Positions 15,543 through 31,834 of a stretch of DNA of 34,563 nt are shown here, one piece after another. The translations under genes and the position numbers were made by a program. The notes below the pieces were generated by a model. That model ran no database searches. It worked only from the letters and a program-made list of their open reading frames with translations, and had not been told where the DNA came from. The stretch is from Byssovorax sp. (GTDB lineage: Bacteria; Myxococcota_A; Polyangia; Polyangiales; Polyangiaceae). Position 1 is the first letter of the stretch, and the number at the start of each line of letters is the position of its first letter. The stretch lies in assembly GCA_025362495.1 (NCBI GenBank), contig JANYGI010000037.1, positions 1 to 34,563 on the forward strand, read 5' to 3'.

Positions 15543-15561
15543 TGCGATCGGCGAGATCGCA
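15543..15561. terminator. Perfect 7-bp inverted repeat after the lipoprotein gene
   Basis: TGCGATC (15543-15549), loop GGCGA, GATCGCA (15555-15561), about 50 bases after the stop at 15493. There is no U-run behind it. It could be a weak terminator or an operator of the chitinase promoter region. Confidence 0.35.
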
Positions 15562-15582
15562 CCCGCGGCGCCCGCGTCTTCA

Positions 15583-15604
15583 CGAAATCCCCTCGAAATC
15601 CCTC
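15583..15604. promoter_or_regulatory. Tandem 11-bp direct repeat, candidate activator site
   Basis: CGAAATCCCCT (15583-15593) is followed directly by CGAAATCCCTC (15594-15604); nine bases are identical. The 11-base period places both copies on the same face of the helix. They lie 33-54 bases upstream of the -24 element of the chitinase promoter candidate. Confidence 0.4.
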
Positions 15605-15635
15605 GCGACTCGCGGCTGCCGCGGGCAATCGGCGC

Positions 15636-15652
15636 TGGCACGCTGGGTGCTA
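15636..15652 (+). promoter_or_regulatory. Candidate sigma-54 (-24/-12) promoter of the chitinase gene
   Basis: TGGCACGCTGGGTGCTA. The -24 half TGGCACG is a perfect consensus match, and the -12 half is GTGC instead of TTGC. The GG (15637-15638) and GC (15649-15650) are exactly ten bases apart. The predicted start site is about 80 bases before the chitinase ATG. With the tandem repeat upstream this is the best promoter match in the window. Confidence 0.55.
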
Positions 15653-15742
15653 TTCCCCGTGTCATCTCACCTCGCATCGCGGAGGACGCCCCCTCTGCGA
15701 CGCGGCGTCGACCCGCGTTCACGCCAGCAAAGGGAAGCCATC

Positions 15743-17254
15743 ATGTCGCGTTACCTCACCGCTCGTCGCACCGGCCTCGCGCTCCTGGTCTCGATCACCG
15801 CGGCGGCCATTGGCTGCCTCGCGGAGCCCGGGCCCGACGACTCGGGTAACTCGACCGAGTCGGGCATCAGCGCCGCGCAGTGCGCCGCCGCGACGGCCTG
15901 GGCTGCGAACAAGGGCTACGCCACCGGCGCGCTGGTGCAGTATCAAGGCAAGGTGTACTCGTGCCTCCAGGCCCACACCAGCCAGGCTGGCTGGACGCCG
16001 TCGGCCGTCCCCGCGCTCTGGCAACTGGAGAGCTGCAGCGGTGGGAGCAGCGGAGTCACCAGCGGCGGGAGCAGCGGAGTCACCACCGGCGGCGGCGCGT
16101 GCAACTACCCCGCGTGGCAACAGGGCGCCTCGTACCACACGGGCGATACGGTGATGTTCAAGGGAGCAGCCTACATCGCGACGCACGATAACCCCGGCTA
16201 CGATCCCACGATCAGCACCTGGTTCTGGTCGCCGACCTCGTGCAGCGGCGGCTCGAGCAGCAGCAGCAGTGGCAGCGGCGGCGCGGGCGGCGGCACGTCG
16301 GGCAGCACGTCGGGCTCGAGCAGCAGCACGAGCGGCAGCGGCGGCTCCGGCGGCGGCAACCCCGGCGGCAAGCTCTTCGTCGGCTACTACCAGACCTGGT
16401 CGGATAGCTGGAAGGCCAATGGCGCTGACACCGTGCTGGCCAAGCTCCCGAGCTACGTCAACGTCGTCAACATCTCGTTCGCTCAGCCCGGCATGAATTA
16501 CGTCGCCGGGAGCATGAGCCTCGGCGGCACCGGCATCGGCGTCCCCTACGACGGCCCCACGCTCAAGGACGCGATCACCGCGCTTCACCAGAAGAACCCC
16601 GGAACCAAGGTGATGCTCTCGGTCGGAGGCGCCACGTTCCCGAACTTCGGATCCTTCAACGCGCCCGTCATCGCCTCGTTCGTCAAGGACTTTGGTCTCG
16701 ACGGCGTCGACATTGACTACGAGCCTGCCAACCCGAGCTGCACCGCCCCCGGAGGCACCGTGACGTGCCCGTCGGACGCCGAGTACGTCAGCGTCGTCAA
16801 GAGCATGCGCGCGGCGCTGCCGTCGCCGCACTGGATCTCGATCGCGGCCTGGAGCGTCGGGGCCTACGGCGAGGGTGCCTGGGCCAGCGCCCCGCCGTCG
16901 AGCGCGTTCGCGGGGATCTCGCTGGCGGTCCTCAAGCAGGCGTCGTCGTCGCTCGATCTCGTCAACGTCATGTCGTACGACGCCAGCCCCGCCTTCGATC
17001 CGGTGCAGGCGCTCCACGCCTACCAGCACTACTTCACCGGTCGGATCGCCATGGGCATCGAGGTCCCGCCCGAGGCCTGGGGTGGTCACCTCGAGACGGT
17101 CGCCGAGATTGACACTCTCGCCAGCGCGGTGAACGGCACCGGCGCCGCCGGCCTGATGCTCTGGAGCATCCAGAAGCCGGGCCCCGCGCAGCAGTTCGCC
17201 ACCGAGATGTGCTCGAAGCTCGGCCTCGCCGGCTGCAGCACCCCGATGTTCTGA
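15743..17254 (+). CDS. GH18 chitinase lipoprotein with two CBM5/12-like modules
   Basis: Exported chitin-degrading enzyme of 503 residues. The signal peptide ends in AAIGC (Cys25), so it is probably lipid-anchored to the cell surface. Two CBM5/12-like modules follow: about 47-98 (YATGALVQYQGKVYSCLQAH) and about 120-167 (YHTGDTVMFKGAAYIA). A Ser/Gly/Thr linker (about 168-209) leads to the GH18 barrel (about 210-500). The catalytic motif DGVDIDYE is at 320-327 with E327 as proton donor; SVGGATF and the later VMSYDA also fit family 18. The ATG at 15743 is chosen for AGGGAAG upstream and for the signal peptide. A sigma-54-type promoter with a tandem repeat precedes it, suggesting activator-dependent expression. 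Fungal cell wall or chitin use is the likely biology. Confidence 0.93.
   Translation: MSRYLTARRTGLALLVSITAAAIGCLAEPGPDDSGNSTESGISAAQCAAATAWAANKGYATGALVQYQGKVYSCLQAHTSQAGWTPSAVPALWQLESCSGGSSGVTSGGSSGVTTGGGACNYPAWQQGASYHTGDTVMFKGAAYIATHDNPGYDPTISTWFWSPTSCSGGSSSSSSGSGGAGGGTSGSTSGSSSSTSGSGGSGGGNPGGKLFVGYYQTWSDSWKANGADTVLAKLPSYVNVVNISFAQPGMNYVAGSMSLGGTGIGVPYDGPTLKDAITALHQKNPGTKVMLSVGGATFPNFGSFNAPVIASFVKDFGLDGVDIDYEPANPSCTAPGGTVTCPSDAEYVSVVKSMRAALPSPHWISIAAWSVGAYGEGAWASAPPSSAFAGISLAVLKQASSSLDLVNVMSYDASPAFDPVQALHAYQHYFTGRIAMGIEVPPEAWGGHLETVAEIDTLASAVNGTGAAGLMLWSIQKPGPAQQFATEMCSKLGLAGCSTPMF
16242..16372. repeat. Ser/Gly low-complexity linker tract (AGC/GGC repeats)
   Basis: AGCAGC and GGCGGC runs encode the flexible Ser/Gly/Thr linker between the second chitin-binding-type module and the GH18 domain. 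It is in frame and coding. Confidence 0.7.
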
Positions 17255-30277: not shown

Positions 30278-31834
30278 TCAGAAGCCGAGCGCGGGGTTGA
30301 GTTTCTTCGGCGGCGGGGGCGGGGGCGCGCTCCGCGGCGTGGCCTGCGCGCTGCTGGTGGGCGCGGTGGCGGCTTTTTCCTTCGTCTTCGGCGGCGGCGT
30401 CGTCGTCGCGGCGGAGGCCGGCTTCTTCGCGGGCGGCGCGGCGGCTTCGACCTCGATCTCGCGCGCCGGCGCCGCGAGCGGCGGAGGCGCCGCAGCGAGC
30501 GTCGGCGGCGTCGTTGTCGTCGGCGCAGCGGAGGACGGCGGAGGCGGCTCGCTCGGCGGGGCCGCGGCCGGGATCACGGCATCGGCCGCGGTGGTCTTCG
30601 CGTGGCGGCCCGAGAGCGCGAGCGAGCCGATCACCGCGGCGGCGACGACGGCGATGAGGCCAAACGCCGCGAGGATCATCGCGCCCCAGGCGCGCTTCGG
30701 GGAGGCGCCGTACTGCATCGTCGCCGGTAAATCGGAGACGCGCGGCGCGCCCGTGAGCGTGCCCGCGTCGGCGGGAGCGCGCCAGCTCGGGGACGACGGC
30801 GGCGGCTCGGGCGGGAGCCTCGTCGTCGCGGCCATCGGCGCGTGCGTCATCGCGACCATCGGCGAAAACAGAGGGGCGGGCGCGATGATCGCGATCGCCG
30901 GGGCGAGCACGACGCGGGGGCTGTCGACGGGCGCGCTCTCGTTCGAGAGCGAGAGCTGCGGCGGGCGCGGCGCCTCCGGTGCGCCCTGCCAGGCGAGGAG
31001 CGCGAGGGCCGCCGCGAGCTCGCGCGCGCTCTGGAAGCGGGCCTCGGGATCGCGCTCCAAGGCGCGGAGGAGGAAGGCCTCCACTGCGGGATCGACGCCG
31101 GGAAACACCGACGAAGCGCGCGGGATCGGATCGGCGCAGACCTTGACCAGCACGTCGCCGATCTGGGTGCCGCCGAAGGGGAGCTCGCCGGTGATCGCGC
31201 GAAAGGCGATGACGCCGAGCGACCAGAGATCGCTGCGATGATCGAGGCCGCGACGGCCGCGCACCTGCTCGGGGCTCATGTAGTGGACCGAGCCGAGGAC
31301 CACGCCCGTGGCCGTGACCTCGGTGGCTGCGTCGGCGTTGATCATCTTCGCGATGCCGAAATCGAGCACTTTGACGATCTCGTCGTCGTCGTCGCGGGCC
31401 AGGAAGATGTTGGCGGGCTTGAGGTCGAGGTGGACCATGCCGGCCTCGTGCGCCTTGCGCAGGGCCTTGCAGATCTGGCCGAAGATGCGGGCCACGGTGG
31501 CGATCGGGAGGCGGCGCTGGCGCTTGAGGCGGCGGCCGAGATCCTCGCCGTCGAGGAGCTCCATCACGATGTAGGGCGTGTCGTGCTCGACGCCGTAGTC
31601 GTGGATCTGCACGACGTGCGGGCTCTGGATCAGCGCGGCGGCCTGGGCCTCGCGCTCGAAGCGAGAGCGGCTCGCCGGGCTCGCGGCGAGCGAGGGCTCC
31701 ATCAGTTTGACCGCGACGAGGCGCTGGAGCTGGAGCTGGCGCGCGACCCAGAGCGAGCCCATGCCGCCCTGCGAGAGCGCGCGCTCGACATGGTACTTTC
31801 CAGCGATGATCGAGCCCGCCTTGATCGTCGCCAT
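30278..31834 (-). CDS. Membrane Ser/Thr protein kinase (copy 2, HLD catalytic loop)
   Basis: Eukaryotic-like kinase of 518 residues. The Gly-rich loop is LSQGGMGSLW, the lysine is K43 (VAVKL), DFG is at 158-160 and SPEQV marks the activation segment. The catalytic loop reads HLDLKPAN: D137 is kept but the Arg before it is Leu, making this a non-RD kinase. A Pro-rich linker leads to one membrane helix at about 384-407. The outer tail is Pro/Ala/Thr/Lys-rich and ends KKLNPALGF. The ATG at 31834 directly precedes the kinase domain; an in-frame ATG at 31882 is less likely. The M16 gene pair follows, and a TPR/PEGA-like gene diverges 154 bases away. Numbering of the core motifs coincides with copy 1 at 7971-9590. 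Confidence 0.92.
   Translation of the reverse strand: MATIKAGSIIAGKYHVERALSQGGMGSLWVARQLQLQRLVAVKLMEPSLAASPASRSRFEREAQAAALIQSPHVVQIHDYGVEHDTPYIVMELLDGEDLGRRLKRQRRLPIATVARIFGQICKALRKAHEAGMVHLDLKPANIFLARDDDDEIVKVLDFGIAKMINADAATEVTATGVVLGSVHYMSPEQVRGRRGLDHRSDLWSLGVIAFRAITGELPFGGTQIGDVLVKVCADPIPRASSVFPGVDPAVEAFLLRALERDPEARFQSARELAAALALLAWQGAPEAPRPPQLSLSNESAPVDSPRVVLAPAIAIIAPAPLFSPMVAMTHAPMAATTRLPPEPPPSSPSWRAPADAGTLTGAPRVSDLPATMQYGASPKRAWGAMILAAFGLIAVVAAAVIGSLALSGRHAKTTAADAVIPAAAPPSEPPPPSSAAPTTTTPPTLAAAPPPLAAPAREIEVEAAAPPAKKPASAATTTPPPKTKEKAATAPTSSAQATPRSAPPPPPPKKLNPALGF

Follow-up and report, generated by a model that had tools for sequence, protein, structure and literature searches.

The predicted chitinase gene studied here (15743 to 17254, plus strand) appears to have a real promoter, one that seems to be part of a switch common to several related bacteria. 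It lies in the window, by which we mean the whole 34,563-nucleotide stretch of Byssovorax DNA analyzed. The best reading is that it is a probable member of a sigma-54 chitin and polysaccharide regulon of this myxobacterial family. The complete explanation, comprising a sigma-54 promoter for the chitinase, a dyad serving as its enhancer, an activator encoded on contig C224 and a regulon of chitin and polysaccharide genes, is one that we consider likely as a whole. Sequence comparison supports the promoter class, the dyad, the co-occurrence of the two elements, their conservation and the neighborhood of the activator gene in relatives. The sequence-only reading of this DNA probably recognized a real promoter and chose the wrong enhancer for it.

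The chitinase gene and its −24/−12 element

The window is contig C238 of a 10.8-Mb genome in 240 contigs. The ATG at 15743 was also the start picked by a simple codon model in gene calling, and a lipoprotein-type signal is visible by eye at the N terminus of the encoded protein. Two CBM5/12 modules (15896 to 16024 and 16112 to 16222) precede a GH18 domain at approximately 16376 to 17002. The Pfam scan gave 67 bits for PF00704 and 81 bits for PF02839, and the protein with both a GH18 domain and chitin-binding modules is predicted to be a chitinase.

The element TGGCACG-CTGG-GTGCT at 15636 to 15651 (plus strand) agrees with 11 of 12 positions of the sigma-54 consensus. Its GG (15637 to 15638) and GC (15649 to 15650) are spaced exactly GG-N10-GC, and it deviates from the TGGCACG and TTGCW flanks by having GTGC in place of TTGC. 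The sequence-only reading had described TGGCACG-N4-GTGC with this spacing 91 bases before the ATG; the element and its placement are as described, and the distance from GC to ATG is 92 bases. Transcription would be expected to start near 15662.

The chance level of such sites was estimated by scoring approximately 0.83 Mb of the organism's own genome against TGGCACG-N4-TTGCW, with GG and GC obligatory and nine wrong spacers as the control. On the sense strand of 452 noncoding regions upstream of genes (80.5 kb in total, with the window's among them, genes from a simple codon model), 23 sites of at least 10/12 were found at the correct spacer versus 1 to 5 at each of the nine wrong ones, and 6 sites of at least 11/12 (5 without the window) versus 0 at each of the wrong ones. 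The antisense strand of these regions likewise had raised counts at spacer 4 (8 and 2 at the two thresholds), which divergent promoters could explain. In all sequence, taken on both strands and mostly coding, there was no excess of sites of at least 10/12 (47 at the correct spacer versus 31 to 59 at wrong ones) and an excess of those of at least 11/12 (11 versus 1 to 6). The exact string TGGCACG-N4-GTGC was not enriched across the 10.8-Mb genome, occurring 11 times versus 20 for the backwards control. The spacing-specific enrichment upstream of genes indicates that the organism uses the −24/−12 element and makes the 11/12 site ahead of the chitinase very likely a genuine promoter element. The genome has one sigma-54 gene and 68 matches to the domain of sigma-54 activators (PF00158), of which the few weakest are doubtful. 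These findings support the earlier proposal of a sigma-54 promoter, the class that we strongly infer for the chitinase, and its corollary of control by an enhancer-binding activator is supported as well.

A GATC-N5-GATC dyad upstream of related promoters

At 15543 to 15561, with no strand assigned, lies TGCGATC-GGCGA-GATCGCA, an inverted repeat with perfect 7-bp arms and a loop of 5. The sequence-only reading had reported this repeat correctly and ranked it second; it recurs before related sigma-54 sites and is the probable conserved enhancer-like element, a putative activator site. Strict orthologues of the chitinase suitable for footprinting were not found in a sample of 376 other genomes from the phylum, 4 of which gave weak matches to the catalytic domain (27 to 33% identity), and we therefore compared homologues of the N-terminal CBM5/12 head instead. 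CBM5/12 matches were collected from 183 genomes of the order, 23 of which had a match. Of 39 loci fetched, 34 had an assignable start (35 genes with the window's own), and L257, L263, L270, L232 and L275 were dropped. A CBM5/12 module within 60 residues of the start defined the N-terminal class, which comprised 22 genes including that of the window; the 13 others fell outside it.

A sigma-54 site of at least 9/12 was present within 300 bp in 19 of the 22 N-terminal CBM5/12 genes and reached at least 10/12 in 14, whereas wrong spacers gave 0 to 3 in the same 22. The corresponding figures were 3/13 for CBM5/12 genes outside the N-terminal class, 34/218 for background genes in relatives and 68/600 for the organism's own genes. 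Fisher p was approximately 2e-11 against the relatives and 1e-14 against the own background, values that ignore kinship among 22 genes amounting to about ten families by our own grouping. The dyad and the sigma-54 site occurred together in 16 of the 22, compared with 2/217 background genes in relatives and 2/600 in the own genome, so that a dyad placed before a sigma-54 site is rare. One of the four background genes with the pair is the organism's own GH8 gene on C232; the other three look unrelated. The six N-terminal CBM5/12 genes without the exact pair are L231, L249, L255, L259, L260 and L274. Homologues of the N-terminal part of the chitinase thus conserve both elements, and when the alignments of three families are read by eye, few blocks are as well conserved as the dyads, the −24/−12 element and the ribosome site.

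The dyad was first spotted by side-by-side reading in the same promoter set that was later used for counting, and its consensus, built without the window, is GYGATC-N5-GATCRC. The counting set consisted of 22 promoters with a site of at least 9/12, window included, and differs slightly from the 22 N-terminal CBM5/12 genes. GATC-N5-GATC was found within 260 bp in 18 of these promoters and occurred 35 times in all 22, versus 0 to 8 times at spacers of 0 to 4 and 6 to 15. In the relatives the dyad stands before the sigma-54 sites of N-terminal CBM5/12 lipoprotein genes, often in two copies, successive dyads being 20 to 25 bp, or about two helix turns, apart in 14 of 17 cases. Its distance to the −24 element is 68 to 190 bases in related genes and 90 bases in the window, where the dyad is single, as it is in several relatives. 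When the 174 GATC-N5-GATC sites in 834 kb are scored with a matrix built without the window, the window dyad comes 4th, and two of the three that outrank it fall inside genes. GATC-N5-GATC was not enriched in bulk in the sequence counted, because GATC is frequent in coding frames. Elsewhere in the genome, at G000:C218:160600, an intergenic GATC-N5-GATC with 13-bp arms has no 9/12 sigma-54 site within the range scanned. The window also contains the palindrome GCGATCGC seven times by raw count (733, 5664, 6265, 14223, 27849, 30891 and 33158). That palindrome presumably resembles the HIP1 repeat of cyanobacteria.

Probable regulon members and the candidate activator

The pattern of a dyad plus GGYMC-N6-TGCW, built after the CBM5/12 promoters and the matches of an earlier search had been viewed, was run on ten genomes blind to gene content. 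It gave 50 rows representing 47 distinct promoters, and 44 rows were examined, 38 directly and 6 through other loci; ten rows lie inside genes and look like chance. The backwards control gave 0, a weak control because the reversed letters are rare. Carbohydrate-active or carbohydrate-binding genes or a PTS gene follow 21 of the promoters, of which 8 belong to known CBM5/12 genes (window included), 2 were known earlier and 11 are new. The new ones precede four GH18 genes (one with CBM4_9, and another, G468:9668328, assigned to GH18 from its sequence only), three GH16 genes, two lectin genes (one with a thaumatin domain), one alginate-lyase-like gene and one PTS gene, for which the family scan was made on its G476 counterpart. 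The remaining matches lie ahead of genes for cytochromes or oxidoreductases (G019), Ser/Thr kinase-like proteins (C79 and G455) and a coiled-coil protein (C221), or have no clear gene behind them. At the two kinase-like genes, which belong to two genera (C79:32851-32970 in G000, L333 and L378; G455:C1:10155782-10155918, L334), only 14 and 13 bases, respectively, separate the end of the pattern from the gene start, so that the mRNA would be nearly leaderless. An unrelated FHA-like activator frame lies approximately 1 kb downstream of the dyad and sigma-54 site that precede the coiled-coil gene (L331, G000:C221, 5708).

The organism's own candidates for further members are a GH8 lipoprotein gene (C232:75660-77087) with the same 90-base geometry as the chitinase, a Phi_1/lectin-like lipoprotein gene (C232:72691-74055) with dyads 174 or more bases off, a GH16 plus ricin-lectin lipoprotein gene on C173, a lipoprotein gene of no clear family on C97 with a 9/12 sigma-54 site, and a second GH18 gene on C206. 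Of two further GH18 genes, the one on C93 has neither a 9/12 sigma-54 site nor a dyad in the stretch examined, and the stretch covering the one on C145 stops short of its start. In G476, dyads lie between a CBM5/12 gene and a row of divergently oriented genes for PTS EIIA-HPr-EI, EIIBC, an amidohydrolase that is NagA-like by position, an SIS protein and a GH20 chitobiase, an arrangement that ties the system to the use of chitin and N-acetylglucosamine (GlcNAc). Since the same pair of elements stands before other chitinase, glycanase and lectin genes, and in relatives also before the PTS and chitobiase run, the chitinase would be one member of a regulon, and the nature of the target genes suggests that chitin may induce it.

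The chitinase itself looks chimeric. Its head, with the signal and the CBM5/12 modules, resembles a relative's GH19 chitinase (the best family homologue, 56% identical over residues 1 to 193, heads a GH19 chitinase in G031), and the GH18 domain is nearest to that of a Coxiellaceae metagenome-assembled genome (MAG). The latter protein is the closest named homologue of the chitinase, at 55% identity. The 12 nearest homologues in named genomes (40 to 55%) come from Coxiellaceae, Legionellales and other gammaproteobacterial MAGs, cyanobacteria, clostridia and Ancylobacter/Azorhizobium, and a single 9/12 sigma-54 site was found across the 8 of these 12 that were scanned. It is possible, although we lean slightly against it, that a cassette of dyad, sigma-54 promoter, lipoprotein signal and CBM5/12 modules has been reused before GH18 and GH19 domains and has here captured a GH18 domain from outside the phylum, placing it under a sigma-54 regulon gated by a Ser/Thr kinase through an FHA activator. 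If so, an imported enzyme would now be controlled by a regulon that attacks chitin and fungal walls.

Pfam scans of the genes submitted from the window showed no DNA-binding regulator, and a Ser/Thr kinase gene at 30281 to 31834 (minus strand) has no evident link to the chitinase. Activator genes were sought in 20 neighborhoods, 17 in relatives and 3 of the organism's own. Four were found, three of which are orthologues (71 to 77% identical). In G031 and G018 the orthologue adjoins a CBM5/12 gene on its upstream side; in G455 it is part of a cluster encoding GH18, the activator, a Ser/Thr kinase, a secreted-looking protein, GH19, the CBM5/12 protein and a polysaccharide lyase. The organism's own counterpart is G000:C224:15142-16464 (minus strand). 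FHA, AAA+ (sigma-54 activation) and Fis-type helix-turn-helix (HTH) domains were found by Pfam in the C224 protein (L390) and two scanned relatives, and the C224 protein is 70% identical to the G018 orthologue. As in G455, genes for a Ser/Thr kinase and a secreted-looking protein follow the activator gene on C224; in G018 a kinase gene is found on the far side of the CBM5/12 gene, and the G031 stretch shows no evident kinase gene. The C224 FHA protein is the likely activator of the chitinase regulon, and the kinase gene behind it makes phosphorylation, read through the FHA domain, a likely input.

The chitinase would then be transcribed from the sigma-54 promoter at 15636 to 15651. The dyad at 15543 to 15561, centered approximately 110 bp before the expected start, would recruit an enhancer-binding protein, most likely the FHA-AAA+-Fis-type protein of C224, and DNA looping would let the bound activator open the promoter complex. 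We infer binding of this protein to the dyad, a kinase as its input and induction by chitin or fungal prey.

The pair of elements might instead belong to the regulon and answer to another enhancer-binding protein of the family, with or without an FHA domain, which we think unlikely but by no means negligible. The recognition helix is common to many paralogues, and the helix comparison covered 33 of the 68 PF00158 matches, the other 35 lying outside it; in G467, moreover, a GH18 gene with the pair is near a relative of the activator family without the FHA part. Against this, the proteins encoded beside CBM5/12 genes in three genera have C224 as their orthologue here, and C224 alone has that helix among the 33 activator frames compared in the own genome. 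The activator family is broad, with matches at E <= 1e-110 in 68 of 183 genomes and up to 7 per genome, as against CBM5/12 matches in 23 of 183. Six g14 genomes have an activator orthologue (68 to 71%) and no CBM5/12 match, and no dyad and sigma-54 pair turned up next to the C224 gene itself or in any of the four g14 neighborhoods fetched. Dyads and sigma-54 sites were also seen near other activator-family members at L421, L426, L428 and L430 (in G164, G022, G050 and G019); the pair at L430 precedes a GH18 gene, and those at L421 and L426 precede genes without a Pfam match.

The sequence-only reading had assigned activation of the sigma-54 promoter to a gene-specific activator bound at a direct repeat, a site for which there is little probability. 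The repeat is in place as described: two copies of CGAAATCCC in tandem with a period of 11 (15583 to 15602, plus strand), 33 bases ahead of the −24 element. The copies at 15583 to 15591 and 15594 to 15602 are the only ones in the window. However, tandem 9-mers are common, occurring in 13 of 173 own upstream regions, and no counterpart was seen ahead of related CBM5/12 genes when the promoters were compared by eye. With as many as 3 mismatches allowed, the genome contains the double repeat at 20 places, and every one other than the window's own deviates by at least 2. Neither conserved nor unusual, and without evidence of function, it was rejected as the activator site.

It is equally improbable that the dyad is an ordinary repressor or activator site beside an incidental sigma-54 match. 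A GATC dyad is no more than an inverted repeat, a kind of site to which repressors often bind, but these dyads lie 68 to 190 bases upstream of the −24 element, frequently in pairs separated by two turns, and they co-occur with correct −24/−12 spacing. Least probable of all is chance, with a promoter of another class and an inverted repeat that is a terminator or nothing: the 15-mer is unenriched genome-wide and perfect 7-bp inverted repeats with loops of 3 to 10 are common (38 of 173 own upstream regions), but the enrichment is spacing specific and the pair recurs in other genera. A terminator hairpin was rejected, the repeat folding barely better than its shuffles (z −1.48).

Relation to known systems

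The preferred reading, a dyad-controlled sigma-54 regulon with the C224 protein as its activator, would be of the known sigma-54 and enhancer-binding-protein type; an enhancer near −110 ahead of a sigma-54 promoter is the standard layout. Sigma-54 activators number in the dozens in myxobacteria, and few of them, to our knowledge, have known targets. In the present case a candidate activator can be put forward together with a DNA site and a group of target genes, and with a kinase as a plausible input, which makes the control of chitin and fungal-wall digestion in this family directly testable. Among the matches listed in full-text searches, judged by titles and abstracts and with subscription journals mostly outside their reach, such a regulon was not described.

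NtrC-type enhancers of enteric bacteria are inverted-repeat sites approximately 100 bp upstream, often paired; placement and pairing are similar, whereas the half-site and the arm spacing differ from GATC-N5-GATC. FHA-domain enhancer-binding proteins of M. xanthus were reportedly described by Jelsbak et al. in 2005, in a study whose title (cited in PMC6971385) concerns fruiting-body development and mentions no chitin regulon. Such activators, known from the development of M. xanthus, share the FHA, AAA+ and HTH architecture of the candidate. ChiS, SlmA and CytR of Vibrio also govern chitinase and chitobiose genes but, as far as the abstracts show, do not form a sigma-54 and FHA activator system. 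Addition of chitin makes the myxobacterium Corallococcus silvisoli secrete a GH19 enzyme together with other proteins (PMC10875029), a likeness in chitin-induced enzyme secretion; the portions of that report consulted give no promoter or regulator.

Another close parallel is the Nla28 regulon of M. xanthus. Nla28/sigma-54 promoters have the form TGGCACG-N4-TTGC(T/A), confirmed by mutation for other genes, and Nla28 binds tandem 8-bp CT(C/G)CG(C/G)AG half-sites, its targets being genes for development and natural products, according to the portions of the two reports consulted (PMC9765219, PMC7910581). The present system differs in having a GATC-N5-GATC dyad before genes for polysaccharide enzymes; it resembles the Nla28 regulon in the same sigma-54 consensus and in a predicted enhancer-binding protein acting on paired upstream sites.
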